A stretch of DNA of 52,665 nt. Source: a virus. Shown piece by piece: positions 17,170 through 50,060 of the stretch. The DNA is taken from IMG/VR virus record IMGVR_UViG_3300032285_003819, positions 1-52,665 of that record; one strand, 5' to 3'. Below the pieces are notes generated by a model. The model worked only from the letters and a program-made list of their open reading frames with translations. It ran no database searches and was not told the DNA's origin. The position numbers and the translations under genes were made by a program. Within the stretch, counting starts at the first letter, position 1, and each line of letters begins with the position of its first letter.

Positions 17170-20100
17170 TTAGCTTCTTACTCCTGCTAGTGAGCCACCG
17201 AATTGTTTTTCTTTTCTGATTACTTCACTTACAACAGCATAAACTCTTTGATTTAGATTCTTAGATAGTTCTACATCTTGCTGCTCATAGCTTGTTGTAT
17301 TACTACCCATCTTTATAGTACCATCTCTTTCTACTGTTGTATTAAAATTAAATGAATTATTTGCGTTCGTATTATTATTAGTAATAGAACTGCTATTTCC
17401 AGCCGCCATCATTGAAGAGCCACCATTTTGCATACCTGCACCATATCTATTTACTATAGGAGTGTTATATAATCCACCTTCCATATAACCAGGAATTGTA
17501 TCAGAAAGACGAGAACCAATTATTCCACCAGTTTGTCTTCTGAATGGAGAAGATACAAAACTTCCAGCTTTTTGATACCAAGTTTGACCATATGTTGGAG
17601 CAGAAAATAAAGACTTAAATCCTGTCTGAGGAGTTCCACCAAGATAATTAGCAGCATTTAATGGTGTGTCGGCGGTCATCAAACCTTGTTTTACAAATTG
17701 TTTTTGTTGCAAATATTCTGCTTCTGTTCTTATTCCTCCTTGACTATTTATTTTTTCTGTGAAAGCTTTGGCTTTTGCAGCTTGTGCATTTTTCATAACA
17801 TTTGACAAACCCGCTCCTATGGCAATAGTTGCAGCAGCAGCAGCTAATTGACCAATCATTGCGGCTCTTTGTTGTCTTCTTTGTATTTTTTTCTGAAGTT
17901 GTTCTTGTTGATTTTGTCTTTGCGCTTCTAATATATCTTTATACAATGGACTATTTTCTAATCCTTCGCTTGTCATATTAGCTTCCATATTGCCCAAATT
18001 GACAGCATTTGATTGTAATATTCTTTTTTGCTTTAAAGAATAATCGTAAGATCCTTGAGATAAATCTACATTATAAGAACCTCCAGCAGCAAATCTTGGA
18101 GCCATAGAAAAATTCAAAGAATCCAATACTGATGGACCGCCCATAGCAGCTACCGCTCTTCTATTTAAGACATATTCTCCATTCTCCAATAGTGCTGGGT
18201 ATTTATCACCAGTTCCAGTGCCTGATATGTACATACCAGATTGAGCGCGAATTATTCCGCCTTCTTGCTTCATCAACATTTCGCCGAAACCAGCACTTCC
18301 CAAAATTTTATACATACCCGCTCTCATAAATGTTGTGCTGATTTCATCTAAGAATTTAGAAGCAATACCCATTAGCGCATCTCCTAAATTATGAGATTCT
18401 TTAATTGCGGCTTTAACACCATCTACTAAACCATCTGCAAACATACTTGGCAAATTTCTACCAAGTTGATCAACCATTACATCAGCTTGGTTGTTTAAAC
18501 TTTGAAAACCAATAGCCATATTATTTACAAAACCAGCAGATTGCTCAAAATCATTTCTCATTTGTGCTGCTTTAGCTTCAAAAAGAGTTGCATTTGAACC
18601 TATTTGTTTGGACGCTATTTCTAAAGTGGTTATAGTCTCTTGAATAGACGCTTTTGTTTCTTCTGTTAAAGCAGCATCTCTTTTTGTTTTCAATTTATTT
18701 ATCGCATCATTTATTGTCGCATCATCACTAACTCCAAAATTAGATATTTCAGCAAGTTTAACAGATTCTCTAGATTTTTGAAATTGATCTCTATTAATTT
18801 TATTTTTAGCTTTTGCTTCTTGTGCGCCAGTTACAAATCCAGATCCAACTTCTTTCATTCCTGAAAATGGCAAATTAGATAAAATATTTCCTAAATTTTC
18901 AAAGTTTGTAGCGCTAGAATCTATAGAATCAAAAAGAGCTTCTGTATTTTTATTTTGAGCTTCTGTATTAGCGTTTTGAGCAGCTATTTCGATGATAGAT
19001 CTTCTAGCATCTGCGATTGCTTGATTTTCTGCGATAACTTGTTCTTGATCAAAAATAGATTTTAGATCTACTTGTTTAGATTCAAATTCTTGACGCTTAT
19101 TTAACCCTAAATATCTAAACTCTCCACCTGTTTGAATTTTAGTTAATTCAAGTCTTTCGTTTGCGGATATTTTAGCTTTTTCTACAGCATCTCTTAGACC
19201 ATTAGCAGCATTTTTTTGACCTAATGTAATGCTTAATTTTTCTTTTTCTAAATCTATTTGTTTTAAAATTGTTGCTTCGCTTATTTTATTAATAACTTGG
19301 TTATAAGCTAATTCTTGCAATTTATATTTTGTTTGAGATTCAGTTTCTCTTGTAGCATCTTTAAATTGAGTCAAAACTCCTTCTAATTTTGAAGACAATG
19401 CATTGATTTCATCTTCATTTTTTCCAATTATACTTGTAGCAAATTTTTTAATTCCTTCTTTATCAAGACTAGTTCCAGTTGATAGAAAATCACTTATTGC
19501 TTTTTGAGAAGACATTCCTGGTATTAGTTTAGAACCAAGAATAGCTTGAGTTGCTTGATTTTTGAATGTTGCGCTTGTTTGTGCAGTTTTTAAACCTTGT
19601 TCTGTTATAGTTCTTCCTGTTAATCTATTAAATTCTTCAGTTTGAAATCTAGCTGCTGTTCTTGCTTGCGACTGTTTAAAGGAAAATCCACGAACAGAAT
19701 CTAAATTGTTAACAACAGCGTTAAAAACTAAATCATTTATTTCTTTTAATTTTGCAGGAACTAATTGTGCAAAAGAAGTTTTAGATTCGAAAGATTTTAA
19801 AGCTTGAACAGCATTATCTAAATCATCAGATACAGTATCTAATAAAGTTCTTCTGAATTGTGCGAAATTAGACAAAACAGTTTTTTGTTCATCAGATAAA
19901 ACTCCTTTTCCTTGTTCCAAATTTTTTCTATAAGCTTCTCTTGTTTTGTCTAAATTGGTTCTTAATACTCTTCCAGCAGAAGATCCAAGTTCTGTTAAAT
20001 TTTCTCCAATTGCTACTAAATAATCTACAGACTCAGTATCAAGTTGAGAGAAAGTCATCAAAACTTTTCTCAAATTATCTTCATCTACATTACCTGCATA

Positions 20101-23100
20101 ATCCATTGTATTTAACGCATCTTTAAACTGTTTGTATTGGTTTTCGGTTAAATTATTTATATTATCAAAAAAAGCACTATATTCAGTAGCTAATCTTGAA
20201 AAATTAGCTTCATTAGCAGCTATATCAATAGCGTTTCTTGGGCCTGACTTTACAGTTTGATATCCTCTTTTGCCTAAATCTTGTATGCTTAATTGACCTA
20301 AAGCTTTTGATTGCGCTAATGATGATTTTTGAGCTTCTATTTTACCTCTTTTTTCTTCATAACTAGTCAAAGCTGTTGTCAATTTATTAACGTCATTTCC
20401 AGCGGCTTTGAAAGCGTCTTGTAATTTAACATCTTTAATATTTTTAAAATTTAATTCTAAAGATGTGGTAGCCTTCTTAATTACTTCTGGATCGGTAGAT
20501 GTGCCTAAAAGTTTTAAAGTATCGATATAACTTTGACCAGCAGAAATATTTTGCTGAGTAGTAGATTTATATTCTTCAGCAATTTTCGCAAACTCATCAG
20601 CACTTAAAGAAGCCGCGCCTAATGCTTGAGCTAAACCAACCGCTGCACCAGCGGCAGCACCTATTGCAGCTCCCCAAGGTCCAAAGCTTGCTCCAATGCT
20701 TGCCCCCGTAGACAAAGAAGTTAATCCTGAACTTAAAACAGATTGACCAACTCGTTCACCAGCAGTCATTTCTGTTCTTTCTTTTTTTCCATAAACAGCT
20801 TGCTCAATTAAACCGGCAGCTATTGGTCCAGCAAAAGCTAAAGTAGTTGCTGCTGAAGATAATTTTTGATTCAAAGCTTCTTTTTTTCTTTGAGCAACTT
20901 CTTCAATTAATTGTTTTTCTACTTGAGGAAGTATATTATTTAAAATTTTGTTATTACCAGTTAACTTTGAAAGTTCACTAGAATATTGAGATACTTTAGT
21001 TTTGTTTTTGATTAATTCATCAGCTAATTGCGACAAAGCTTTTTCTAGATTTTCTATCGATCTGTCCCAATTTTTTGGCGCATTAGGCAACAGACCTTTT
21101 ACATTAATTTTAGTATCAGCGAAGTTTGGAACAAATCCAGCACTCATTAATCCAGCAGCTTTCTGACCTCTCATTGAATCGCTCAATGCATTACTTAAAC
21201 CACCATGATCAGCAATTGCGGAACTAAATGTTGGCTGACTGCTATTTCTAATGTGTGGGAAAGGTTTAGTATCAAAGATAGCTTTATTGCCGCTCATACT
21301 TTCTTCTAAGCCCATTACTGCTTGTTTATAAGCAAAATTAGGAAGAAATCCTTTGGCGAAACCAGCGAAGCCACCTTTTCTTTCTGAATTTATAAATCTA
21401 TTTAATACTTTTGGATCATTTAGCTTTGATAAATCTGTTTTTGGACTTGATAAAAATCTTAGTTCGCCAGAACTTAAATTACGACCAATAGAAGATTCAA
21501 TATCTTTTATCAACTTCATTAAGTCGCCAGAATAATGAACTGAATTTTTAGTCAAAGTGTCTACATCTATAAAATCAGCAAAATTAGGAATAAAACCATT
21601 TGCAGAAGCCATCGCTAAGAATGCAGGATTTTTTACATAACTATTTAATAAGCTATTTGTTTCTGCGGATAATCCTTTTACAAGATCAGGACTACTTTTA
21701 GCCATTTGAGAATAGCTTGTTCCTGCAAGTTGAGAAAAAGTTTTTCCAAATGCGGAAGGCAATTGATTCTCATGTCCTAATTCATTAAATGTAATTATTG
21801 ATTCTTTTATTTTAGCTGCACCAGCAGGATTAGCTTTAGCAAATCTTTCATATTTGTCGTTTAAATTTCCAGAAATAGAACCAGTTAAATTTGCTTTTGG
21901 AAAACCTTTATATTCAAGAGCTATATCTCCTAAAAACGCATCAAATGCTGATTGTTTTTGATCTGTTCCAGGTTGTAATGCATAACCTCTAATTAACTGA
22001 TCTTTAATTTTTGATTGAGAAACCAATTGCATTGCTTTAAACACAAAATCCTCATACAATGGAGCGAAAATATTATTATCTCCAACCTTGTCTGCACCTT
22101 TAGCACTGCTTCTGAAATTAACTTGTCTAAAAGTATCTACGTCACTTGCTTTAGATATTCCCAAAGTAGGTTGAATAGCATCAAAAGCAGAATTGCCAAA
22201 TTTTTTAAACCAAGGAACTCTTATTGCACTTGTAGGAGGAGCGAAATTAGGTATAAAACCTTTTGAAAAAAAAGGCGATCCAGATGGACTTATTACATCA
22301 TAAGAACCAACATCAATAAAATCATTATTAGTATTACGATAAGATTGATTTGTTGTACTTAAATATTGCGAAATAGCTTTTTGAAAAATATCATTGATAG
22401 AAATTTTTTGTCTAGTTCTTACTTCAGCAAATCTTCCATCTTTTGCGGATAAATCAAAAAATTGATTACCTTTTGCACTTGTATATCCATCTTGTTTTAA
22501 TTCGTCATAAGCTTCAGCTTCCCCAAGCAAGCCTTGAACTTGATTGAGAGCATTACTAAACCCAGCTGTATTTTTAATATTTTTTAAAGCCGTTTCTGTT
22601 TTTGCTAAAGATGAAGGATCAACTTTATTTTTATATTGATCTATAAAAGATTGTAATTGATTTTTATCATTATAAATTTCACCAACTATTGTTCTTGCCA
22701 TATTTTTAAAAAAACCATATGGCAGATCAAATTGTTTTTTTACGATATTTGCAGCAAAAAGATCATCATATTTTGGACCAGTATTAGTTTTTGATGTAAC
22801 AAGATTAGTTTGTTTGGTTTTACTAGCCCATTCTCTACTTCTAACTGTACCTAATGTTTTTAATCCAAAATTAGGTATAAATCCACCATACATATATGGA
22901 TCAACACCTGTTCTATTTATAGCATTTTGTCTATGTGCGCGGCCAGCATCTGAATTTGCTGGAGGATTAATAAAAGGTTGAGCGAAACCGGGAATATATT
23001 TAACACTTTCAGCGGTATTCATTACTCCACCAACTGGAGAATTTACTACTTGACCGGGAGCGTAACCACCAGCTTGTGCGCCAACAACTTCTGCCATTCT

Positions 23101-24762
23101 TGTGGCATTTGGAATATAACCTCCTGCGCGATTTACTTGTAATCCACCAGATCCTTTTACTCTTACTCCTTGCCCAGCTAATTGAGCAGCTAGTTGTTTA
23201 GCAAGAGTTGACTGCATTTGATATTCTGCTGTCTGCTGTCTTGCTATTTGAAGTAATAATTGAGCTTGTGCAGCTTGATTACCCATCAATCCAGAAAGAG
23301 CTTGTGCCGCTGGCCCTTGTTGCTGCATTATTTGCAAAATAGATTGTTCAATATTTTTTCTATTTTGTGTTTCGGTGGTGATACCAGCAATCTGAGGTAA
23401 AGCCTGACTAAGATAAGTAAAAGAATTTTGTATTAACTTGAAAAGAGTAAAGAAAGCAGCAATGGCACCTGGACCAGCTATTACATTACGGATGCCTTTC
23501 AATAAGCCATTTGCAAAAGTAGAACCGGCACCTTCTCCTTCAAGAACTTCATTTATGTTTTCAACGAATGATTTCAACTGCTGTGCGCCATATTTCGCTA
23601 ATGGCTCAAATGTTACTTTACCAATATTATTTGCTAGTTGTTGAGTTGAAGTGGCAGTTTGTTTTAATAATGCATCAAGAGTTAGATTCAATTTAGCAGT
23701 TGCGACTTCAGCTTCATTTGTTGCAGACGCGCCTCTCTGTAAAGCTCCTGCATAAACTCCTTGAGATTTATTTAAATCTCCAACAATTGCTTTTAATATG
23801 TTGACTTGATAAACACCGGCAACTTGTTCTGATAATTGCGCTCTTTGAGCATCAGCCAAACCTTTATAAGCTCCAGCAAAATTTTGTAATATTTGTACAG
23901 CAGGTAATGTATTTCCTTCTACATCTCTAACCGCTATATTAAAAGCTTCTAGTTGATCAAGAGTATCATTACGTTGCAAACGGGTAAAAATTGTTTTCAA
24001 TGCGTTACCAATTACTGCGCCACCTCTTGCAGTGCTTTGTTGAGCAGCAGTAACTAATGCATTTAATTGATCAAGACTAACACCCGCTTCCTGAGCAGCC
24101 TGTCCTGTACGAGATAGAGCTTCAGCCAAATCACCAGCCCCTACTGCATAATCTTGTTCAACTGCCACCAACTTATTTAATATTTGAGTTGTAGTTATTC
24201 CAGTTGAAGCGAAACCGTTTACAGTTGAAGTCAATGCATCAACAGCATTTGCAGTTCCAATTCCAGCCAATCTTGTTAAAGTCAACGCATCTTTAGTTCT
24301 TACCAAAACATCTTCAGCTTTTAAACCTTGGCGAGAAAATTCAAGAGCCGCTTTAGAAGCGTCATCAAATGTAGAAGCGGTTTGTTTACTGACACTAAAT
24401 AAATCTGTACTAAATTTCTGTAATTGATTGGTTGTTAGTCCGAATACACGATTAATATCTGCCAAACTTTTTTCTACTTCAATTGTAACATTAGCTAATT
24501 CTTTGAAACTACGGATAACACCACCTAGAACAGCAGTAGAAGCTCCGAATGCAATAACGCGAGCATTGGAAGCTGCGAGTGCGGCTTCGAAGTCTTTAAC
24601 GTCACCCGTCATTCTTCCAAGAGGTTGGGAGAAAGCGCGTTGATTAACGCTTAAATTAATCTGATTGTTCTGTGCAAACTTTTGATTATATGCTTGAACA
24701 CCAGCTTGAATAGAAGCGGTTAATGCTGCTTGATTGGCGGCGACATTAATTTGAACTGCCAT
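17170..24762 (-). CDS. Tape measure protein with embedded nuclease-like domains
   Basis: 2530 aa. Residues 1-480 match the TP901-type core (TFDDASKAALEFSRQGLKAE, GNALKTIFTRLQRND). Residues 480-1220 form an unusual insert divided by GFIPNFA-type motifs at about 547 (GGYIPNA), 626, 835, 1056, 1138 and 1209. Between them are two regions resembling PD-(D/E)XK nucleases: one with E748, D770 and E780-V-R782, the other with D941 and E950-Y-K952. An Ala/Gly-rich hydrophobic stretch spans about 1345-1385, followed by long helical regions. The C-terminus has the usual GGIIRAQSGMYISG / LLENGEYVLNRRA segment (about 2165-2210). Tape measure length sets tail length, and the protein enters the host with the DNA, so embedded enzymes could act there. 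The GTGTAA element lies 9 nt before the start. Confidence 0.9.
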   Translation of the reverse strand: MAVQINVAANQAALTASIQAGVQAYNQKFAQNNQINLSVNQRAFSQPLGRMTGDVKDFEAALAASNARVIAFGASTAVLGGVIRSFKELANVTIEVEKSLADINRVFGLTTNQLQKFSTDLFSVSKQTASTFDDASKAALEFSRQGLKAEDVLVRTKDALTLTRLAGIGTANAVDALTSTVNGFASTGITTTQILNKLVAVEQDYAVGAGDLAEALSRTGQAAQEAGVSLDQLNALVTAAQQSTARGGAVIGNALKTIFTRLQRNDTLDQLEAFNIAVRDVEGNTLPAVQILQNFAGAYKGLADAQRAQLSEQVAGVYQVNILKAIVGDLNKSQGVYAGALQRGASATNEAEVATAKLNLTLDALLKQTATSTQQLANNIGKVTFEPLAKYGAQQLKSFVENINEVLEGEGAGSTFANGLLKGIRNVIAGPGAIAAFFTLFKLIQNSFTYLSQALPQIAGITTETQNRKNIEQSILQIMQQQGPAAQALSGLMGNQAAQAQLLLQIARQQTAEYQMQSTLAKQLAAQLAGQGVRVKGSGGLQVNRAGGYIPNATRMAEVVGAQAGGYAPGQVVNSPVGGVMNTAESVKYIPGFAQPFINPPANSDAGRAHRQNAINRTGVDPYMYGGFIPNFGLKTLGTVRSREWASKTKQTNLVTSKTNTGPKYDDLFAANIVKKQFDLPYGFFKNMARTIVGEIYNDKNQLQSFIDQYKNKVDPSSLAKTETALKNIKNTAGFSNALNQVQGLLGEAEAYDELKQDGYTSAKGNQFFDLSAKDGRFAEVRTRQKISINDIFQKAISQYLSTTNQSYRNTNNDFIDVGSYDVISPSGSPFFSKGFIPNFAPPTSAIRVPWFKKFGNSAFDAIQPTLGISKASDVDTFRQVNFRSSAKGADKVGDNNIFAPLYEDFVFKAMQLVSQSKIKDQLIRGYALQPGTDQKQSAFDAFLGDIALEYKGFPKANLTGSISGNLNDKYERFAKANPAGAAKIKESIITFNELGHENQLPSAFGKTFSQLAGTSYSQMAKSSPDLVKGLSAETNSLLNSYVKNPAFLAMASANGFIPNFADFIDVDTLTKNSVHYSGDLMKLIKDIESSIGRNLSSGELRFLSSPKTDLSKLNDPKVLNRFINSERKGGFAGFAKGFLPNFAYKQAVMGLEESMSGNKAIFDTKPFPHIRNSSQPTFSSAIADHGGLSNALSDSMRGQKAAGLMSAGFVPNFADTKINVKGLLPNAPKNWDRSIENLEKALSQLADELIKNKTKVSQYSSELSKLTGNNKILNNILPQVEKQLIEEVAQRKKEALNQKLSSAATTLAFAGPIAAGLIEQAVYGKKERTEMTAGERVGQSVLSSGLTSLSTGASIGASFGPWGAAIGAAAGAAVGLAQALGAASLSADEFAKIAEEYKSTTQQNISAGQSYIDTLKLLGTSTDPEVIKKATTSLELNFKNIKDVKLQDAFKAAGNDVNKLTTALTSYEEKRGKIEAQKSSLAQSKALGQLSIQDLGKRGYQTVKSGPRNAIDIAANEANFSRLATEYSAFFDNINNLTENQYKQFKDALNTMDYAGNVDEDNLRKVLMTFSQLDTESVDYLVAIGENLTELGSSAGRVLRTNLDKTREAYRKNLEQGKGVLSDEQKTVLSNFAQFRRTLLDTVSDDLDNAVQALKSFESKTSFAQLVPAKLKEINDLVFNAVVNNLDSVRGFSFKQSQARTAARFQTEEFNRLTGRTITEQGLKTAQTSATFKNQATQAILGSKLIPGMSSQKAISDFLSTGTSLDKEGIKKFATSIIGKNEDEINALSSKLEGVLTQFKDATRETESQTKYKLQELAYNQVINKISEATILKQIDLEKEKLSITLGQKNAANGLRDAVEKAKISANERLELTKIQTGGEFRYLGLNKRQEFESKQVDLKSIFDQEQVIAENQAIADARRSIIEIAAQNANTEAQNKNTEALFDSIDSSATNFENLGNILSNLPFSGMKEVGSGFVTGAQEAKAKNKINRDQFQKSRESVKLAEISNFGVSDDATINDAINKLKTKRDAALTEETKASIQETITTLEIASKQIGSNATLFEAKAAQMRNDFEQSAGFVNNMAIGFQSLNNQADVMVDQLGRNLPSMFADGLVDGVKAAIKESHNLGDALMGIASKFLDEISTTFMRAGMYKILGSAGFGEMLMKQEGGIIRAQSGMYISGTGTGDKYPALLENGEYVLNRRAVAAMGGPSVLDSLNFSMAPRFAAGGSYNVDLSQGSYDYSLKQKRILQSNAVNLGNMEANMTSEGLENSPLYKDILEAQRQNQQEQLQKKIQRRQQRAAMIGQLAAAAATIAIGAGLSNVMKNAQAAKAKAFTEKINSQGGIRTEAEYLQQKQFVKQGLMTADTPLNAANYLGGTPQTGFKSLFSAPTYGQTWYQKAGSFVSSPFRRQTGGIIGSRLSDTIPGYMEGGLYNTPIVNRYGAGMQNGGSSMMAAGNSSSITNNNTNANNSFNFNTTVERDGTIKMGSNTTSYEQQDVELSKNLNQRVYAVVSEVIRKEKQFGGSLAGVRS

Positions 24763-24790: not shown

Positions 24791-25786
24791 TTATCCGAAT
24801 ATTTTCATCATGTCATCCATACTCAAAGATCCGCCTTTCTTCTTAGCTTCATCAGCTAAAGAAAGAGTTTTTTGACCTTTAGCTTTCAATCCGACGTATT
24901 CAAGATCTTCGGCAGTTGCGCCAACTATTGAAGTAGCTTGATTTTCTTTATTGTTTTTTTCTTCTATTGTCTTTTTAGCATTTTCATTAGCATTTACATA
25001 ATCTATAATCTTGTCAGGATCATTTTTGATGTCTTGAGGCATTTTATCATTTTGCTGAAAAACATTTTTAAAAAATCTAGCGTAAATAAGTAATTTTATC
25101 TGATTATAAGTAAGCTCGCAAACTGACTTACCAAAAAATTCAGTAGGATTTTCAGCGAATGGCATGTACAAATTAAAAAAATCTTGCAAAACTAAATACT
25201 GAATCGTGTTGTCATTTATATTTTTATATACTTCTGAGTATTGTTTTATTATGCAAGTTAGTGTTTCTGAATCTATATTATCAAACTCATCTTCTTCAAA
25301 AGCTGGTTTTAATAAAACTTTATCTTTATAAAGACATTTTAAAATATAAAAATCGTTAACTCTTTCTTCAGCATAACTTTCTGCTGTTCTATTAAAAAAA
25401 GAAGCTTTTGTGTTTTTAATGTCATACAATCGTTTTTGCGCTGATTCTATATCAGCGTTTACTCTTTGTATTTCAGATTTTAAATATAATACTTTTTTTT
25501 GTTTATTAAGATTATCAATAAAATCTTCTTCTTGTTTTATTAATGATTCTTGTCGAGTAGACCATTGTTTTTCTTCAATAAGTCGTTTTAAAGTTTCATC
25601 ATTAGTTGGAACACCGCGACTCTTAGCTTCATTAAAATAATGATCGTAGATCTGATCGATATCGACCTGATCTTCCAAAGACAAATGCTTTAAATAAAAA
25701 AGATTCTCTAAAACCTTGATTTCAGAGAATCCGTTTTTAATATCCCGAAAAGCTTTTTTGTACTTATTCTGTTGGGATTGTTCCAT
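24791..25786 (-). CDS. Probable tail assembly chaperone (second gene)
   Basis: 331 aa, strongly charged and helical, with no membrane segments. There are coiled-coil-like stretches (about residues 75-125, NKQKKVLYLKSEIQRVNADI) and an acidic/lysine-rich tail ending MDDMMKIFG. It lies directly upstream of the tape measure, the place of the gpG/gpGT chaperones in lambda-like phages, and overlaps the previous gene by 23 nt. I found no classical slippery heptamer at the overlap, and it has its own ATG, so separate initiation is simpler than frameshifting. Function is from gene order only. Confidence 0.5.
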   Translation of the reverse strand: MEQSQQNKYKKAFRDIKNGFSEIKVLENLFYLKHLSLEDQVDIDQIYDHYFNEAKSRGVPTNDETLKRLIEEKQWSTRQESLIKQEEDFIDNLNKQKKVLYLKSEIQRVNADIESAQKRLYDIKNTKASFFNRTAESYAEERVNDFYILKCLYKDKVLLKPAFEEDEFDNIDSETLTCIIKQYSEVYKNINDNTIQYLVLQDFFNLYMPFAENPTEFFGKSVCELTYNQIKLLIYARFFKNVFQQNDKMPQDIKNDPDKIIDYVNANENAKKTIEEKNNKENQATSIVGATAEDLEYVGLKAKGQKTLSLADEAKKKGGSLSMDDMMKIFG

Positions 25787-26543
25787 CTATTTCTCCAATA
25801 ATTCTGTCGAACTCTTCCTTTTCAGTATTGCTTGTAAAAAACCAATAACTAATTATACTAGCCAACTTACTATAACACTTTTCATAAATTTCATTTTTGT
25901 TTTCTTCGTAATCAAACATTACAGTCTCCTTAGCTTCGAAAGTCTTACCGGGAAATAGCCATTCATATTCAGCATTCTTTTTACTATTATCCTTAAATTG
26001 AGTAAGATTTAGTACATACCAAAGAATTGCTCTATTTTGAGCCTTGATATCTGCTGTATGATTAAACAAAGTCATATAGCTAGTTTCCTTTTCAATCAAA
26101 GTTTTACGACGTTGAAGAATCTCAGAAGTTACAGTTTCTATCTTCTTCTTATAATCTTCATCTCGCTCTGATTCTGGTTTTAGATTTAAAATTGTTAGTC
26201 TGCTCTGGAGATCTCCAATTTCTCCAGCGGCAGAAACCATAATCTTTGCATCACTATCGCTAATCAAACCGCCAGTATCACTATATTTATTTAACAACAT
26301 CGCCTTTGTTAAAATACCGCTTCTGATGCATCTACTCATTTCAATACTGAATTCCATATCAGCATCTTGCATTTGCTTTCTATTTGGCTGAAGAATATTA
26401 ATCTCTACTGGAATTTGCTTCTTTACTTTTTCCTTATAAGTGCGCATTACTTGTTCACCTTGTTCATTAGTTACCGTCTCCGTCTTATCTTCTTCTACCT
26501 CGGCGCTTTTATAAATATTGAAACTATAAAGAGTCTTTGACAT
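25764..26543 (-). CDS. Probable tail assembly chaperone (first gene)
   Basis: 259 aa from ATG 26543. A start at 26582 would add 13 residues and leave only 17 bp to the divergent gene, and MSKTLYSFNIYKS is the more natural N-terminus. The protein has an early variable stretch, KKQIPVEINILQPNRKQMQDADMEF-type segments (about residues 40-65), and long helices after residue 100. It is the first minus-strand gene of the tail block, two genes ahead of the tape measure. Lambda-like phages keep tail chaperones here, so that role is inferred. No catalytic motif is seen. Confidence 0.5.
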   Translation of the reverse strand: MSKTLYSFNIYKSAEVEEDKTETVTNEQGEQVMRTYKEKVKKQIPVEINILQPNRKQMQDADMEFSIEMSRCIRSGILTKAMLLNKYSDTGGLISDSDAKIMVSAAGEIGDLQSRLTILNLKPESERDEDYKKKIETVTSEILQRRKTLIEKETSYMTLFNHTADIKAQNRAILWYVLNLTQFKDNSKKNAEYEWLFPGKTFEAKETVMFDYEENKNEIYEKCYSKLASIISYWFFTSNTEKEEFDRIIGEIDGTIPTE

Positions 26544-26599
26544 AATTTTTAATATAATAAGATAAATTCTATTATTTTTCAACCAGTGTAATCATAAAT
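26544..26599. promoter_or_regulatory. Divergent intergenic region between tail and neck blocks
   Basis: These 56 bp of very AT-rich DNA separate the leftward tail block from the rightward neck block. TATATT-like hexamers are present for leftward transcription, and a GTGTAA element precedes the rightward start. It is the likely site of paired late promoters. Confidence 0.5.
26586..26591 (+). promoter_or_regulatory. GTGTAA start-associated element (neck gene)
   Basis: The hexamer lies 8 nt before ATG 26600. This is the only plus-strand copy of the nine start-linked sites, and it does not overlap any coding sequence, so codon usage cannot explain it. Confidence 0.6.
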
Positions 26600-41916: not shown

Positions 41917-42666
41917 TTAGTGGATGTTTGTTTTATCTAATTTCTTAAATACGCTTACAATATATTTTAGAATTTCACTACGCATAATGTCTTCTTCATC
42001 GAATTGAAAGCAATAAATTCCGCGATCTTCACTTTCTTTATTATTAAAAAGATCATAAACCCTCATGAAACCAGACTTATTGCCAATGTCTGATTGCATC
42101 GCATCTCCGCAAATAAACATTTTTGTATTTTCGCCAATACGAGTAAGAAGAGTAATTAGTTCTTTACTACTGTAATTCTGCGATTCGTCTGCGATAATAA
42201 TCTTATCATTCCAAGTCGCTCCTCTTAAGAAATTAATTGGTAAAGCTTCTATGAATCCATTTGTTTCTAGATATTTAGATTGAGACATTGGAAGAAGCTC
42301 ATCTAATTTATCATACAACGGCATCATGAATGGGTTAAATTTCTCATCTACTGTTCCAGGTAACGAACCTAACGCTCTTTCACCTGATTCAGCGATAGTT
42401 CGTATATATTTCAACTCTGACTTAGGATTCATATTCAAAATATGAAGCGCACAGTATACAGCTAAAAATGTTTTAGAAGAACCAGCAGGGCCATTAATAA
42501 AAATAATCTTTGTATTCTTATCAAAAGCTATTTGAGCGAAACTTTTTTGTTTGTCTGTTAAATTGAAGTTTCTAATATTTAACTTGACTGATCTAAAATG
42601 ATTGTCGGCGATAATTTCATTTAGATCTTCCTTTTCTTTTTGAATTTTCTTTTTTTTGGTTGACAT
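41917..42666 (-). CDS. PhoH-like ATPase
   Basis: 249 aa, a typical single-domain PhoH-family P-loop ATPase. Walker A is GPAGSSKT (residues 59-66) and Walker B IIIADESQN (about 155-163). The intervening GERALGSLPGTVDEKFNPFM and LTRIGENTKMFICGDAMQSD blocks are characteristic of the family. PhoH proteins are frequent in phages; RNA- or stress-related roles have been proposed but the exact job is not settled. It heads the minus-strand block, with a divergent glycosyltransferase 27 bp away. GTGTAA lies 13 nt before the start. Confidence 0.9.
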   Translation of the reverse strand: MSTKKKKIQKEKEDLNEIIADNHFRSVKLNIRNFNLTDKQKSFAQIAFDKNTKIIFINGPAGSSKTFLAVYCALHILNMNPKSELKYIRTIAESGERALGSLPGTVDEKFNPFMMPLYDKLDELLPMSQSKYLETNGFIEALPINFLRGATWNDKIIIADESQNYSSKELITLLTRIGENTKMFICGDAMQSDIGNKSGFMRVYDLFNNKESEDRGIYCFQFDEEDIMRSEILKYIVSVFKKLDKTNIH

Positions 42667-42693: not shown

Positions 42694-43740
42694 ATGGTAT
42701 TTCACTGTTTAAGTGTTCCTTATTCTCCTACTAAAAAAGATATATCATTATGCGCTTTTGTGCAAAAAGTTTATAAATTTTGCAACGAAATGACTAAACG
42801 CGGCCACATTGTTTACCATTACGGCCATGAAGATTCTATCGTTAATTGCACAGAACATATTAATGTTATTAATAATGATATATTAAAAGAGAGTTATGGC
42901 AACTTAAATGATTGGAAAGAAAAAGGATTTAATCAGAATGTAGACACTAAAGCCGTTAATATATTTAATAATAATTGTATTTTTGAATTAACAAAAAGAA
43001 TAAAATCTAAAAATGAATTTATACTATGCTGGTTTGGATTCGCTCATGAACCATGTGTTAAATATTTTTATAATAAAGCTATAGTTGTGGAGCCTAGTAT
43101 AGGTTATGATAGTATGTTTGCACCAATTAAAATATTTGAAACGCATAGTCAAATGCATAAAATGCATGGCAACTCATGCACAACTATAGGATTAGGATCT
43201 GAATTTGTTGTGCATCCAGGTTTTGATCCTAATGATTTTTTATATAAAAAACAAAAATCAAATATAGCTTTATTTCTCGGTAGAATAACCGAACAAAAAG
43301 GTGCTAAATTAGCTTATGATATTTGCAACCACACTCAACAAGATATTATTTTTGCAGGACCAAACATACTAGGTTTAAAAGATACTAAACATTGCAAATT
43401 TATTGGTTATGTCGATCCAATTAAAAGAATGTATTTACTAAGCGAAGCTAAATTTTTATTTGCACCATCTTTATTTATAGAACCTTGCAATTGGACAGTT
43501 ATTGAATCTCAATTTTCAGGAACACCAACTATAACAACAAATTTCGGAGGATTTACCGAAACTATATTGCAAGGAGAAACTGGATTAAGATGTTCAAGCG
43601 TAAATGATATGATTTACTCTGTTCAAAATATAGATAAATTAATTAACCCTGAAAATTGCTATAAAAACGCAATTTCAAAATTCACATTACAGAAACAATG
43701 CGATTATTATGATTATTTATTTAAATCATTAATGCATTGA
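42694..43740 (+). CDS. Family GT4-like glycosyltransferase
   Basis: 348 aa with a GT-B fold pattern. The C-terminal domain has FLGRITEQKGAKLAYDIC (donor-site start, about residue 190), QQDIIFAGPN, then FIGYVDPIKRMYLLSEAKFLF and EPCNWTVIE, an E-x7-E motif, with GTPTITTNFGGFTE after it. These are hallmarks of GT4 retaining transferases using nucleotide sugars. It is the only plus-strand gene of the locus, and its last 28 nt overlap the 3' end of the TibC-like gene on the other strand, so antisense interference is possible. Donor and acceptor are unknown. Confidence 0.85.
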   Translation: MVFHCLSVPYSPTKKDISLCAFVQKVYKFCNEMTKRGHIVYHYGHEDSIVNCTEHINVINNDILKESYGNLNDWKEKGFNQNVDTKAVNIFNNNCIFELTKRIKSKNEFILCWFGFAHEPCVKYFYNKAIVVEPSIGYDSMFAPIKIFETHSQMHKMHGNSCTTIGLGSEFVVHPGFDPNDFLYKKQKSNIALFLGRITEQKGAKLAYDICNHTQQDIIFAGPNILGLKDTKHCKFIGYVDPIKRMYLLSEAKFLFAPSLFIEPCNWTVIESQFSGTPTITTNFGGFTETILQGETGLRCSSVNDMIYSVQNIDKLINPENCYKNAISKFTLQKQCDYYDYLFKSLMH

Positions 43741-44564
43741 TCTATTTTTTCTCTAACATTTTCAAAAGATATCGTTTTACTACATTCAAAATCTTTATTT
43801 CTTGGACAATAAATCCAATTGCTTAAAATTCCTTTGACATTATCAACAGCACTATCATTAAGACATCCATGACAAACATTTTTATTTATCACTCTATAAC
43901 AATTATTAGCAAATTCGTTATCCTCATTAGTACATCCAGAAATCAATATAACTTTTTTATTTAAAGCCCATGCTAACCATGATAATCCACTGCTTATTCC
44001 AATAAAAAAACTACAATTTTTTATTTGTTGAACTCTATAATCAATAGGATAATCACCTGTTTCGTTAATAGCGTCTTCTGGGATTTTATTGAATTTTTCT
44101 TTAATTCCAAATTCCTGATATTTATCTATGACATAAACGTCATAATTCAATTTTTTTAAATAACGAACAACTTTTTGCCATCCAACAGGATTATTCCAAT
44201 ACTTCATTTGAGAAGTTGAATGAACACTTATGCAAACATATTTCTTTTTTTTATTAAAACTGTGTCTGCTTGTTGTATTAATTAATGGAATAAGTTCTTG
44301 ATAGTCCAAGCCTAATGCGTCACAAGCTATTTTTTGCATAGGCCCTTCTCTAAATATAAAACACACATCTTTGACTATATCGAAAATATCTTCATAATTA
44401 ACATCGACAAAAAAAACATTTGTATTATCTGAATAAAATAAGAAATGCCACTTTGTCTTCACATAAACTTGTCCTCCATATTTTTTTTGATAAGCGTCGG
44501 CATAAATAGAGAAAGCTATATTATCACCTAAGCTATGAGTTATAAAATTAATTAATGTTTTCAT
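43713..44564 (-). CDS. TibC-like O-heptosyltransferase family (stand-alone)
   Basis: 283 aa, similar to bacterial autotransporter O-heptosyltransferases (TibC/Aah family, GT9-like). Visible blocks: NFITHSLGDNIAFSIYADAY at the start, SVHSTSQMKYWNNPVGWQ (about residue 152), FFIGISSGLSWLAWAL (about 205) and ISGCTNEDNEFANNCYRV. The C-terminus has C-x2-C (VCHGC) then WIYCP and FECS, four cysteines matching the iron-finger position in TibC. Family enzymes attach heptose to Ser in autotransporter repeats; the sugar and substrate here are unknown. It overlaps the fusion gene upstream by 17 nt and the plus-strand GT4 gene by 28 nt. Confidence 0.8.
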   Translation of the reverse strand: MKTLINFITHSLGDNIAFSIYADAYQKKYGGQVYVKTKWHFLFYSDNTNVFFVDVNYEDIFDIVKDVCFIFREGPMQKIACDALGLDYQELIPLINTTSRHSFNKKKKYVCISVHSTSQMKYWNNPVGWQKVVRYLKKLNYDVYVIDKYQEFGIKEKFNKIPEDAINETGDYPIDYRVQQIKNCSFFIGISSGLSWLAWALNKKVILISGCTNEDNEFANNCYRVINKNVCHGCLNDSAVDNVKGILSNWIYCPRNKDFECSKTISFENVREKIDQCINDLNK

Positions 44565-46551
44565 TTTTTAAATCGCTTATGCAATGATCTATCTTCTCTT
44601 TCACCATTTCAAATGTTATTTCTCTGCTACATTCAAAATTTTTATTTTCAGGACACCAAGACCAATTACTATATTCAAATTTATATTTTTTGTTATTAAA
44701 ACAGCTGTTACAAACATTCATGTTTTGCACACAGTAAGGAGTAAAAAATTCAAAATTTTGAGCTACTGAATTATTTATACGCACAACTTTTTTACCCAAT
44801 CCCCACGCTAACCAAGAAAGACCAGAGCTTAAACCAATAAAAAATTCACAATTATCAATTATGTTAATTATCTCATCAAATGAGTCATTACCAGCAAAAT
44901 AATCAACATTATCTGGACATTTGTTAATATAAGGAGTTCTACCAAAACTATAATATTTATCAACACAAATTACTTTGTAACCTAAATTTTTCAAATAATC
45001 AACTATTGTTGTCCATCCTTCTGCATTATTCCAATATTTAAATTGACCAGTAGTTTGAACAGCTATGCAAACATATTTCTCACAATCAAATTTTTTTTGT
45101 TGATTAAAGTTTTTAATTTTACAAGGCTCCTCTTCATAAGTTAAACCTAAAATCAAGCAAGCTATTTCTTGTAAATTTTTACTTATCCAATCCATATTAT
45201 CGAAACAACCTATTTTAAAATGAATATTTTCATTGCACATCTGTTTCTGAGTGTAATCAAAGAAATTTAATTCAGGATAAGTTTGCTGTAATATATTTTT
45301 ATATGGAGTAAAATAATTAACTTTTATATTTTTTTCTCTAGCATATCTAGCAACAATCGGAGTCCATGCAATAAAATCGCCAAGACTATTTGATTCATTG
45401 GTTATATTAATCGTTTTTTTTTCTGACTTGTTTTTTAAATGATCGATTGCTATTTTTGCAGCTTTTTCCCATGTGAAATTTTTTCTTATAAAATCGCTAT
45501 CTTTTAATGCTTTTTGTTTATAAAATTCATAGCTATTATAAACTTCAAGCATCTTCTTTTTTAAATCATTATAATCTGGATTATAATATCCAAACATAGT
45601 ATCATTTTTATCTAAGATTTCTCCATGAACTTTTACGGCTATTCCTAATCCTTTTGCAAATTCTAATTGACCAGAACAATTTGAATATATTGATGGTATT
45701 CCACAAGCTAAAGATTCAATAAGAGGAAGATTCCAACCTTCTGATCTAGCGCATGATAAAAAAACACTACTACTTTTTATCATTTTTATCAATTCGCATC
45801 TCTCTTGAAAATCAATTATTTTTATATTTTCGCAAGTAATATTCATTTCTTCAAGTCTTTGTTTTGTAGATTTATGACTGTCATCTGGAAAATTATTAGA
45901 ACACGAAAGTAATAATTGGACATTACTATTGTTTCCAAATAATTCAACAAAAGCTTGCACTATTTCTTTTGTGCTTTTTCTTCTTTCCCATTTTCCTAGT
46001 ACTAAAAAAGTAAATTTATCATTATTTTTCAAATCTTCTGGGAAAAGTTCATTTGGATCTATTCCTTCTGGTACGATTCTTATTTTTTCACGCGAGAATC
46101 CTTGCCTTATTAAACAATCATATTGCCAATGAGTAGGAACCCAAACTTGATCAGCAAAATTTAATTTTTCAAAAAAAGAATTGGGGTATGTGGTTTTTTC
46201 CCAAACATTATAAAATATTTTTTTACCAGAATAATTATCATTATAATATTGATGAAAACAATCAACCAAAACTATATCAAATTCATGATCAAAATTATTA
46301 AGACCATTATAAATAGGCACATCGAACTGCCCATTTTCAAAAGAGCATGTTTGTAAAGCTAATATTTTTTTATCCAATTTATCTACAGAATCCCCATGAA
46401 CCTCTTTTGAATTAACCCCTTTCCAGTTTGAATCTACAGAATAATTTCTAATTTTGACATCCGATTCTTTAGATAAAGCTCTAAAAAAATTTCTAGAATG
46501 AATTGCGTATCCAGTCCTACCAATATAACAACAATGACCTAAAATTTTCAT
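44548..46551 (-). CDS. GT4 - TibC-like glycosyltransferase fusion
   Basis: 667 aa, two enzymes in one chain. Residues 1-370 are a GT4 transferase (FLVLGKWERRKSTKEIVQAF about 185; ARSEGWNLPLIESLACGIPS about 270). Residues 380-660 are a second TibC-like domain: NSLGDFIAWTPIVARYA, AVQTTGQFKYWNNAEGW, FFIGLSSGLSWLAWGLGKKV, and the four-cysteine end (CNSC, WSWCP, FECS). It is clearly related to the neighbouring stand-alone enzyme, so one arose by duplication. Fusion suggests two consecutive sugar transfers to the same acceptor. It overlaps its neighbours by 4 and 17 nt. Confidence 0.8.
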   Translation of the reverse strand: MKILGHCCYIGRTGYAIHSRNFFRALSKESDVKIRNYSVDSNWKGVNSKEVHGDSVDKLDKKILALQTCSFENGQFDVPIYNGLNNFDHEFDIVLVDCFHQYYNDNYSGKKIFYNVWEKTTYPNSFFEKLNFADQVWVPTHWQYDCLIRQGFSREKIRIVPEGIDPNELFPEDLKNNDKFTFLVLGKWERRKSTKEIVQAFVELFGNNSNVQLLLSCSNNFPDDSHKSTKQRLEEMNITCENIKIIDFQERCELIKMIKSSSVFLSCARSEGWNLPLIESLACGIPSIYSNCSGQLEFAKGLGIAVKVHGEILDKNDTMFGYYNPDYNDLKKKMLEVYNSYEFYKQKALKDSDFIRKNFTWEKAAKIAIDHLKNKSEKKTINITNESNSLGDFIAWTPIVARYAREKNIKVNYFTPYKNILQQTYPELNFFDYTQKQMCNENIHFKIGCFDNMDWISKNLQEIACLILGLTYEEEPCKIKNFNQQKKFDCEKYVCIAVQTTGQFKYWNNAEGWTTIVDYLKNLGYKVICVDKYYSFGRTPYINKCPDNVDYFAGNDSFDEIINIIDNCEFFIGLSSGLSWLAWGLGKKVVRINNSVAQNFEFFTPYCVQNMNVCNSCFNNKKYKFEYSNWSWCPENKNFECSREITFEMVKEKIDHCISDLKNENIN

Positions 46552-48722
46552 ATAATAATATAATTATGTCTTATATATCTATAAAATCCATACGAGTAAC
46601 TTTTTACTTGGTTCTGTATTTTATTAAAATTTTCTTCTAAAATTTTATCTAATTCATGTTTATTATCAAAATAATTTTCTTCTAAATAATATAAAATAAT
46701 TTTAGCTTTATTATTGTTTGATTTTATTTTATCAACCGTGTCTTTTATAAAATTTGAATTCAAAAAATAATCGCAAATTATCAAATAAAAATCAGAATCG
46801 TAATTACAATCAAAATCTATTTTACAATCAGAATATAAATTTCTGAATTTATTTTTTTGATCCAAACTTAAATTTTGCGAAATAATGGATATAGATTTAT
46901 TATGTAAAATATTTATTCCTAAAATCAACAAACCCGAAGTTTCTTTATAAATATCATTAAAAATATAATAAGGATCATAACAATTATTTTTTAATTTATT
47001 ATATGCTAAATCAAAATTCGCATTGAAATTGGGTTTTGCTGGAGAATGAGAATCAGAATCTTGTCTTAATTTCCAATTGTATAAGCATCTAGGTATATGC
47101 ATCCATTTACCCAAACTATTAAAATACATAACTCTATATGAATCTTCAGAAACAGCGTTAAAATCATTTATTTCGAAATTAATTTCTTTGATATTTTTAA
47201 AACATCTTAAATGGCTAAAAGCATAATAAGAAATATTATTCAAATAATTTATATTTGGATGAAATGATGGTAAATTATCTAAAAGATTTTTGTTATTTTT
47301 TAGCAAAGATATAGAATGAAAATTATTATTTTCTGTTTTTATAAACTCACTGCTTATAAACACAGCTTCTGGATAAGACGATGCGAATTTATTATAAATA
47401 TTTAAAAAGCTTGGATCAAATTCGTCATCACAATCTATCAAAACTATATAGTCAAATGAAGAATCAAAAAATTTATTAGGTTGCCAGAACATTTCTTTTT
47501 TACGAGACTGTTCTACATATTTTACATTTTTAAAATATTTTATTTTTTCAAGAAGCATTGATTTAGTATTATCAGAACTAAAATCATCAGTTATTATCCA
47601 CTCAAAATTATCGTAATCAATTTTAGATATTTGATCAAATATAAAATCTACAAATTTTTCTGCATTATAAAAAGATGTATAAAGACCGAATTTTTGCCTT
47701 TTTAAAGGATAAATATTATTCATTTTAACACTAGAAAGATCGTATTTTGGATACACTATAGATTTATTTATAGATGTAATATCGATCTCTTTAAATTTTT
47801 CTAAAACATCATTATAACTAGGATGACATTTAAAAGTTTTATATTTTTCTAAACAATCTGGTAAATAAGGAGTAGCATTTATAGTTCCCCATTCTTTTAC
47901 TGAATATTTTACATCACTTGTGCAAAAAATTTTGCAATCTCCTCCTATAAATTTATATTTATAATCTCTTGATCTTTTTCTTATTGGATTGACATATCTA
48001 TAATCTGATGCAGTTCCTACTTGTATTATCCATGCATCAGTCGTACCAGCCACATGAAGCGGACCAGAATCCATAGTAATTATACAAATAGAATTATTTA
48101 TCAAATGCCACATATCACTGATAGAAGAACCATCATTAGAGTAATTGATTATATTATTACCTTTTGGCACAAAACATTTTTTTTCAATAATTCCTTCAGA
48201 AGTTGGTTCTAAATAATCTTTTCCAATTACTACTATATTATAACCTAATTCACTTATTTTATCGGCAAGATTCTGCCAATTTTCTTTGCTCCAAGTTCTA
48301 TTCTTCCAATTAGAGGTAGTATGTATACAAACATAGTTATTTAGGCTTTTAATATCATATTTACAATGTTCATCTGCAAAAAAATCTAAAGTTAATTCTT
48401 CATCTAATAAATCAAAACCTAAATCAAAAGCGCAACTTCTTCTTCTATCACAAGTATGTATTTTTCTAAGAGATTTAATTCTAGAATCTTTGAAAAAACT
48501 TTCCATTTCAAAACAAGATAAAACTTCATATTTAGATTCGTCCACTTCTTCTTCTAAAAAAAAATTAGAATCTACATAAGGATTATTTTTAAAAAGACTG
48601 GGGTATTTAGATTTTACACTTATTTTTCTTCCATAAGCTTTTGATAATTTTCTTAAAGCTGGAGTAGCGCAAAGAGTATCGCCCATACCATAACCATGTA
48701 TCTTTAATAACACTTCTTTCAT
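46548..48722 (-). CDS. GT9 - GT2 glycosyltransferase fusion
   Basis: 724 aa. Residues 1-330 are a GT9 (heptosyltransferase-type) domain: IHGYGMGDTLCATPALRKL, CIHTTSNWKNRTWSKENW and MDSGPLHVAGTTDAW (about residue 217). About 355-560 form a GT2 domain: FGLYTSFYNAEKFVDFIF, WIITDDFSSDNT and the metal-binding LIDCDDEFDP (about 427-436). The last 150 residues, with the LLILGINILHNKSISII segment, look like a separate alpha/beta domain I cannot name. A three-part enzyme of this type is probably soluble, since no membrane segment is seen. It follows the DUF6165 gene with a 4-nt overlap. Confidence 0.8.
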   Translation of the reverse strand: MKEVLLKIHGYGMGDTLCATPALRKLSKAYGRKISVKSKYPSLFKNNPYVDSNFFLEEEVDESKYEVLSCFEMESFFKDSRIKSLRKIHTCDRRRSCAFDLGFDLLDEELTLDFFADEHCKYDIKSLNNYVCIHTTSNWKNRTWSKENWQNLADKISELGYNIVVIGKDYLEPTSEGIIEKKCFVPKGNNIINYSNDGSSISDMWHLINNSICIITMDSGPLHVAGTTDAWIIQVGTASDYRYVNPIRKRSRDYKYKFIGGDCKIFCTSDVKYSVKEWGTINATPYLPDCLEKYKTFKCHPSYNDVLEKFKEIDITSINKSIVYPKYDLSSVKMNNIYPLKRQKFGLYTSFYNAEKFVDFIFDQISKIDYDNFEWIITDDFSSDNTKSMLLEKIKYFKNVKYVEQSRKKEMFWQPNKFFDSSFDYIVLIDCDDEFDPSFLNIYNKFASSYPEAVFISSEFIKTENNNFHSISLLKNNKNLLDNLPSFHPNINYLNNISYYAFSHLRCFKNIKEINFEINDFNAVSEDSYRVMYFNSLGKWMHIPRCLYNWKLRQDSDSHSPAKPNFNANFDLAYNKLKNNCYDPYYIFNDIYKETSGLLILGINILHNKSISIISQNLSLDQKNKFRNLYSDCKIDFDCNYDSDFYLIICDYFLNSNFIKDTVDKIKSNNNKAKIILYYLEENYFDNKHELDKILEENFNKIQNQVKSYSYGFYRYIRHNYIII

Positions 48723-49078
48723 GTAAAATGTTTAAATTCTAGAACGCTAGAATTGTAATTTTTATTTATTTCTGATTTTATCTTGAATCGCGCATCGTTA
48801 TTTTTATAGACGCTTCTGGCTAACTCTACGAATTCTGTATCGAATTCATTATTCTTTTCTTTTATTCTTATATCATCTTCGATATACCATAATTTTTGAT
48901 TAACATTTTGCAAATCAGTAAAATACCTCTGTTCAATATTAAAAGGTTTAATAATTTCATTTATTAAATTGATTTCTTCATCAATTTTTATAGAAGCATT
49001 TGGTATATTTTGTTTTTTTATTTTTAATATTGTTATCTTGTCAACTGCTTCGCCGATAGAAACTGGAATTTGTATCAT
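48719..49078 (-). CDS. DUF6165 family protein
   Basis: 119 aa from ATG 49078, chosen over an in-frame ATG at 49111 because it follows the FkbM stop by 7 bp and begins MIQIPVSIGEAVDKITILKI, the family's usual N-terminus. Other conserved blocks are LWYIEDDIRIKEKNNEFDTEF and LARSVYKNNDARFKIKSEIN. The function of DUF6165 is unknown; its members often neighbour glycan-related genes, and the setting here agrees. It overlaps the GT9-GT2 gene by 4 nt. Confidence 0.75.
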   Translation of the reverse strand: MIQIPVSIGEAVDKITILKIKKQNIPNASIKIDEEINLINEIIKPFNIEQRYFTDLQNVNQKLWYIEDDIRIKEKNNEFDTEFVELARSVYKNNDARFKIKSEINKNYNSSVLEFKHFT

Positions 49079-49085
49079 ATATATT

Positions 49086-50060
49086 TTATGCAAGAGAACG
49101 ATTTTTTGCAAAAATAATTCCCAACTTTTCTGATTTTACGATTACCCTATATTCAAAACCATTTTTCTCAAAGAAAGAAGTTAAATTTTGAAAATGACCG
49201 TGATATTCAACAGCTATTTTTCTGATATTATTTTTTATATAGTCAGCATTTTGTTCTGTGAAAATATAATGCTCTCCTCCTTCACAATCGCACTTAAAAT
49301 AGTCAATTTTTTGAATATTATTTTTGTTTATAAAATCTAAAAATGAGTAGCCTTGAATTTTTTGCTGAGGTCTATTTCTATCATACCAATTAATATTTTC
49401 ATTATCTGCTATAAAATTAGCTGGATCTGTATCAGATAACAATACTAAATATTTTTCTTCTGTTTTATTGGATATAGCTACATTATTCAACACAACTTGT
49501 GGAAAATGAGCGAAATAATCTTCGAGAATAGAAAAAGATTTCAATGAAGGTTCGCAGCAATAAATTTTTGAACATTTATTGTTTATTGCTTTTGTTATAA
49601 AAGCTCCAATATTTGAACCAATATCTAAAACAACATCATTCTTTTCTAAGGAAAAGAAATCAGAATCATATTCTTTAAAACAAAAAACTTCCATAAAACT
49701 ACTCATTTCTATTCCATCATTAATATATTTTAAAATTTGTGGAGCTTCTGTCAACGCATCTGACATTTTAAAATTAGAAGAGTAAAAAGATTCTGAAAAT
49801 ATTAACTCCTCATCATCAAAAATTTCTAATCTCAATGAATTAGATATTTTTTCGCCAATTGAATGTCCTATAAAATAAACATAATCTTTTATCAATATCA
49901 TATCATCATAATGATAAATAAAATTAAAAAAACCATCTTTCAGTTTTACTGATAAAATTTTATTTTCATATTTTGAATCATTTAATTTGAAATGAATAAC
50001 TGCTTTTGATGGATTCAAATTAAACTCTATTCCAGTTATTGTAAACAGTTCTTTTTTCAT
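49086..50060 (-). CDS. FkbM-family methyltransferase
   Basis: 324 aa. Residues about 1-120 are a beta-rich leader unlike usual FkbM proteins. The catalytic domain then shows the S-adenosylmethionine motif VVLDIGSNIGAF (about residue 143), YCCEPSLKSFSIL, and YFKCDCEGGEHYI (about 247), typical of the FkbM family that O-methylates sugars or natural products. It starts at the A of the epimerase stop (TAATG), so it is coupled. In the locus it probably methylates the sugar assembled by the transferases, capping or masking the chain. Confidence 0.85.
   Translation of the reverse strand: MKKELFTITGIEFNLNPSKAVIHFKLNDSKYENKILSVKLKDGFFNFIYHYDDMILIKDYVYFIGHSIGEKISNSLRLEIFDDEELIFSESFYSSNFKMSDALTEAPQILKYINDGIEMSSFMEVFCFKEYDSDFFSLEKNDVVLDIGSNIGAFITKAINNKCSKIYCCEPSLKSFSILEDYFAHFPQVVLNNVAISNKTEEKYLVLLSDTDPANFIADNENINWYDRNRPQQKIQGYSFLDFINKNNIQKIDYFKCDCEGGEHYIFTEQNADYIKNNIRKIAVEYHGHFQNLTSFFEKNGFEYRVIVKSEKLGIIFAKNRSLA

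Follow-up and report, generated by a model that had tools for sequence, protein, structure and literature searches.

By analyzing the window, that is the whole stretch of 52,665 nt considered here, which corresponds to an IMG/VR virus record, we found that its tape-measure gene is divided into modules by a short recurrent linker, that related phages differ in this gene by whole linker-module units, that the modules keep residues of catalytic type, and that unrelated nuclease-type families occupy the same slot. The explanation that we favor, and consider probable, is that this tape measure is a carrier of exchangeable, mostly nuclease-type cargo that acts in the infected cell. A sequence-only reading of the same DNA had proposed two PD-(D/E)XK nuclease-like regions in the protein, and had supposed that they might cut host DNA or competing elements or be inhibited decoys. 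The cassette role of the linker, the exchange of modules and a further conserved residue (E904) go beyond that reading.

The tape-measure protein (2530 aa) is encoded by the ORF at 17170-24762 on the minus strand, as are all features of this gene given below. It matches the Pfam profile PhageMin_Tail (E = 6.5e-26) and a tape-measure PHROG (7e-46). Since the genome also encodes a lambda-J-like tail protein and a large terminase, the window phage is most likely a siphovirus. Upstream of the tape-measure gene, on the same strand (24791-26582), two genes (259 and 331 aa in the aligned set) share an overlap of about 23 nt. Their layout resembles that of tail assembly chaperone pairs with a frameshift, and they have no PHROG match. 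Elsewhere in the window we noted a PhoH gene (41917-42666) and a glycosyltransferase-like gene cluster (42694-50060), including a family 9 glycosyltransferase and an FkbM methyltransferase, which is unusual beside virion genes.

Five copies of the linker subdivide the central part of the protein. Three read GFIPNF, at residues 627-632 (22867-22884), where homology to relatives stops at the 3' edge, at residues 835-840 (22243-22260), where a homology break coincides with the motif, and at residues 1056-1061 (21580-21597). They are followed by GFLPNF at residues 1138-1143 (21334-21351), again together with a homology break, and by GFVPNF at residues 1209-1214 (21121-21138). The copies stand exactly at module ends, so that the array starts with an opening module (residues ~554-626; 22885-23103), continues with module A in slot 1 (residues 633-834; 22261-22866), module B in slot 2 (residues 842-1055; 21598-22239) and an optional module of unassigned role in slot 3 (residues 1062-1137; 21352-21579), and ends with a closing module (residues 1144-1208; 21139-21333). 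Both A and B are thus bracketed by linkers, and the limits that the sequence-only reading had given to its two domains (633-834 and 842-1055) do fall between the GFIPNF motifs at 627, 835 and 1056. The window tape measure holds two nuclease-like modules and one of unassigned type, while its relatives carry disparate enzyme types.

From 432 distinct contexts, the linker consensus is [AS]-x-G-[FY]-[IV]-P-N-F-A, with A or S at position -2 in 83% of them, and a logo of the joint reads A/S at -2, S/G/K at -1, then GFIPNFA. A variant, GFIPHFA, was seen in one relative (L091). Scanning DNA for the motif returned at least 120 viral stretches, and most of the listed ones sit in long ORFs with several copies. 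Codon sharing among motif copies of one ORF was 0.705 against 0.584 expected, somewhat above expectation, so that the constraint is mainly on the protein, with some likeness at the DNA level. In the open-access literature, we found no paper containing the motif string and no description of motif-bracketed modules in tape measures.

By comparing the window with its relatives, which are sequences from viral contigs, we first observed that identity over the first 540 residues is mostly 89-94% in close relatives (67% in L009). Identity of the opening module is mostly 82-91% (68% in L009) and that of the closing module 82-100% in all, with 92-100% in close relatives and 82% in L009. Despite these conserved flanks, slot 1 of the same relatives contains unrelated modules. 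Second, DNA identity to the window, measured over 30-nt segments, changed from about 0.9 to background level at each linker: it was mostly 0.8-1.0 until the motif was reached and mostly 0.2-0.5 just beyond it, with the mirror image at the next motif. Third, pairs of relatives showed the same behavior. For L015 and L019, one flank aligns over 11.9 kb at 92.5% identity and the other over 10.4 kb at 97.9%, yet the modules in slot 1 differ and the alignments terminate on the 18-nt motif; the difference between L010 and L012 is one clean linker-module unit; and L010 and L015 have in common a 1.55-kb block (B and the next module) that is 99.5% identical inside flanks of 91-92%. The slot 3 module of the window is likewise found in L015 (95%), and other relatives have a different module there or none. 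Because homology breaks on the 18-nt motif and the differences are clean units, these alignments demonstrate, at the level of sequence comparison, that linker-module units are substituted, gained or lost as wholes among related phages and that the breakpoints fall at the linker, which works as the standard joint where units are exchanged. The linker may in addition be a hinge or a processing site. Across 10 loci, the genes flanking the tape measure were the same whatever the module, and no module-specific immunity or self-protection gene was found there.

Behind the closing module (residues 1216-2530; 17170-21120), identity to the relatives that are ~90% identical N-terminally falls abruptly to 21-37% over residues 1216-1900 and is mostly 40-60% over residues 1901-2530, so that the C-terminal part of the ruler probably also exchanges or evolves fast. 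The closing modules of many relatives (e.g. L046 and L093) come in two alternatives, both strongly conserved, of the types NPLGLxVxNxxDEP and PHxRNxxQPxFxSAxxDHGG. When we scanned bacterial genomes with the closing-module pattern, we obtained two short Flavobacteriaceae MAG contigs (L167 and L168), both with linker-type tape-measure genes that include a PD-(D/E)XK-like module. This hints at Bacteroidota hosts, two short contigs being too little to name a host.

The residues on which the nuclease proposal had been based, namely E748, D770 and E780-V-R782 in module A and D941 and E950-Y-K952 in module B, are all present at these positions of the ORF translation. In a single sequence, such an acidic pattern is at about chance level, as D-x6-20-[DE]xK starts at 17 places in the tape measure compared to a mean of 10.9 in shuffles. 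We took the pattern as real on the basis of its conservation in relatives, ranking alignment columns by their divergence from background and blind to the motif. For module A, seven sequences were aligned, the distant ones being 18-32% identical to the window. The predicted active-site residues D770 (22453-22455), E780 and E748 (22519-22521) ranked 1, 2 and 3 among 201 columns and were invariant, as was K795, located 13 residues past R782. Position 782, in the predicted (D/E)xK element (22417-22425), was either R or K. The replacement of Lys by Arg that had been pointed out for module A thus applies to the window, L163 and L009, while K is found in L160 and in the distant L165, L166 and L025, so that the clade of the window departs from the canonical Lys.

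The AlphaFold2 model of module A (mean pLDDT 73.8, and 80-96 across most of residues 41-205) displays in order a strand, helices, a long helix with E748, a short strand, a strand next to D770, a strand with E780, a helix and a strand. This predicted order agrees with the helix-three strands-helix-strand core of PD-(D/E)XK enzymes, without proving it. Structural matches were weak. The best Foldseek hits in the PDB were NucS (2vld, E = 0.24) and PvuII (1ni0, 0.46), both with low TM-scores, and VIA returned the cap-snatching nucleases of Lassa, Pichinde and LCMV viruses as well as FAN1 (Z 4.5-6.0), in a list that also holds unrelated helical proteins at similar Z. There was no significant match in a viral fold library. 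Taken together, the conserved columns and the predicted topology make the assignment of module A to the PD-(D/E)XK type well supported.

For module B, 19 sequences were aligned. The predicted active-site residues D941 (21940-21942), E904 (22051-22053) and K952 were invariant and ranked 8, 12 and 17 among 214 columns; position 950 of the (D/E)xK motif (21907-21915) was only D or E, and K970 was invariant as well. The AlphaFold2 model was poor (mostly below 60 in the core region, pLDDT 66.3 overall), fold searches with it gave no significant match, and profile comparison did not link module B to other module families. Support for the PD-(D/E)XK type is thus moderate in the case of module B and comes from its conserved residues. 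Searching PDB and Pfam with sequence profiles returned nothing useful for either module. The restriction-endonuclease core that had been anticipated in both structures is consistent with the model of A, for which fold matches are weak, while the poor model of B says little about it. We also looked in homologues for loss of the acidic residues and found them kept in every homologue of A and of B. As most of these residues were picked beforehand from one sequence and then found conserved, they represent a prior prediction that held, and we consider their conservation the strongest evidence that both modules are of PD-(D/E)XK type.

Extending the census, we grouped 347 modules into 96 clusters. 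In the relatives of the window, slot 1 is occupied by seven sequence clusters, six of them PD-(D/E)XK-like: A itself, a distant relative of it with E-V-K (L025), cluster 27 with D-A-K, cluster 25 with E-A-K, cluster 51 with E-S-K and cluster 8 with D-A-H. In cluster 8 (L003, L013, L132 and L082), H or Y stands in place of the catalytic Lys within a well conserved DAHSGxGH, which could be an altered catalytic center. The seventh cluster is of staphylococcal-nuclease (SNase) type (L010, L012 and L020). A homologue in L141 matches the SNase Pfam family with E = 1.9e-9 and 38.4 bits against a cut-off of 21, while the L010 module (0.014) is below the cut-off; a thermonuclease of the PDB is matched at 1.8e-4, and the catalytic D, D, R, D, E, R set is kept in the cluster (n = 4). 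That two unrelated nuclease folds occur in slot 1 argues strongly for nuclease activity being the selected property.

In the larger set, E, D, (D/E), K and a second K rank among the most conserved columns of cargo families numbering 27, 16 and 9 sequences, and the top columns of the largest families include G, F, E, D, (D/E), K and K. A search with a PD-(D/E)XK signature was positive for 14 of 61 cargo families, compared to 2.4 expected from shuffles; this signature was drafted after reading the sequences, and the count is a description rather than a test. By signature or by profile link, a PD-(D/E)XK-like module occurs in 82 of 100 architectures from uncultured viruses. Modules are mostly without assigned function across this set; a few others have profile matches to GNAT acetyltransferases (7.3e-8), HATPase (5e-5) and a cytidylyltransferase-related family (3.4e-8). 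Modules that looked by eye like ADP-ribosyltransferase, kinase, HAD or metallopeptidase domains got no support in Pfam or PDB sequence searches.

Could these modules be something else than nucleases? It is very improbable that the acidic residues are a chance pattern in segments unrelated to nucleases. The near-chance frequency in one sequence and the failure of Pfam and PDB sequence searches to give a useful match to either module would fit such an explanation, but the residues named in advance turned out to be the top three columns of A and to be invariant or D/E-only in B. More weight, although we still find it unlikely, has to be given to modules being nucleic-acid-binding or structural parts of the ejection machinery, in which the nuclease-type fold would line the channel or be bound to the leading end of the DNA, with no need for catalysis. 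Their being close to a core component (82 of 100), the many proteins made just of an opening segment, one module and a closing segment, and the presence of R782 in A and of His for Lys in cluster 8 (L003 and L013), suggesting that catalysis is dispensable in some, speak in its favor. However, residues of catalytic type are the most conserved columns of A and belong to the most conserved ones of clusters 2, 5 and 6, D/E swaps preserve the chemistry, and an unrelated SNase fold with its catalytic set is found in the same slot. The earlier idea of an inhibited decoy is similarly disfavored by catalytic sets kept across divergent families, although R782 leaves room for it in the case of module A.

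Two other explanations concern where and for whom the modules would work. Instead of working in the next host, they might do so in the cell that produces the virions, for instance on host DNA at a late stage of infection or while particles are assembled. The gene does lie among tail genes, its product is made before assembly, and delivery is here what we infer. On the other hand, phage DNA not yet packaged would be endangered by an active nuclease fused to a virion protein, a separately encoded enzyme would be better suited, and the lambda tape measure gets to the inner membrane of the next host (PMC13190303); we hold this explanation to be improbable. Even less probable is that the modules are selfish in-frame nuclease elements, similar to homing endonucleases or inteins, that spread into tape-measure genes. 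Nuclease-type modules indeed swap within an otherwise conserved gene, and homing endonucleases interrupt the tape-measure genes of other phages, a known site (PMC10448857). Yet the joints (A/S at -2, S/G/K at -1, GFIPNFA) do not have intein-like ends, a screen of 88 modules at E ≤ 0.01 gave no homing-endonuclease Pfam family, other modules resemble acetyltransferases, ATPases or nucleotidyltransferases, and several units are chained with their linkers retained.

Several known systems resemble parts of this arrangement. The polyvalent proteins of phages and conjugative elements are multi-enzyme polypeptides for which injection together with DNA, as infection begins, has been predicted (Iyer et al. 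2017, PMC5512222). Like the tape measures described here, they combine several kinds of enzymes in one long polypeptide, among them GNAT-type domains and domains acting on nucleic acids. In contrast, a tail ruler is here the carrier, PD-(D/E)XK-like modules predominate and each joint bears a fixed linker; we found no mention of tape measures, SNase or the restriction-endonuclease fold in the text of PMC5512222. By this analogy, the window protein would belong with the known injected multi-enzyme phage proteins, injection being in its case presumed, and the linker-bounded cassette architecture would be the new element.

Effectors of the Sle1 type, delivered by contractile injection systems, also combine a tape-measure-related carrier with diverse, exchangeable domains, one of which can be transplanted and inhibits growth of E. 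coli, presumably via nucleic acids; according to the available part of that source, they differ from the window protein by serving a bacterial nanomachine, by their C-terminal cargo, by an immunity partner in one case and by having no linker motif (PMC13277306). Bacterial polymorphic toxins similarly associate a constant carrier with exchangeable toxin-like domains, nucleases being common (PMC3482391), whereas the cargo of the window is internal, chained and phage-borne, with no adjacent module-specific immunity gene in the 10 loci. Finally, tape measures of SPbeta-like, Staphylococcus and Lactococcus phages have an N-terminal domain homologous to that of the window (20-30% identity), and some have annotated transglycosylases or endopeptidases; none of them matches the cargo region of the window. 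More generally, no annotated phage record matched this cargo region, the other matches being to the N-terminal domain only.

Thus, we favor as probable the explanation in which the tape measure carries exchangeable cargo into the infected cell. One would not expect a tail tube to accommodate a folded domain of 200 aa, and threading must therefore be assumed. The modules would be carried in the tail as part of the tape measure, either non-native or threaded. They would pass into the cell along with the DNA or ahead of it, then fold, and cut nucleic acid (the host chromosome, plasmids or rival phage DNA) as infection starts; rapid change of modules would track differences in host or competitor. 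The lambda tape measure adjoins the inner-membrane protein ManZ during injection (PMC13190303), which indicates that tape-measure material does reach the inner membrane. Counting against our explanation, B is without fold support or profile link, the matches of A are below significance and R782 replaces the catalytic Lys. More speculatively, we suggest that in widespread uncultured tailed phages the tape measure might be a loading rack, on which enzyme cassettes, mostly nucleases, are swapped at the GFIPNFA joint, this joint being cleaved during or before entry and freeing first-wave weapons into the new host.

If the modules are delivered, the ruler of these phages would also be a delivery vehicle, and replacing a single unit of a single gene would alter the set of injected enzymes. 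With the linker as a handle, such proteins can be picked out of raw sequence, the limits of modules can be set for cloning, and the sites of processing or unfolding joints can be predicted. Many unannotated nuclease-like families are thereby opened for testing, and these tape measures may offer a natural model for loading foreign proteins into tails.
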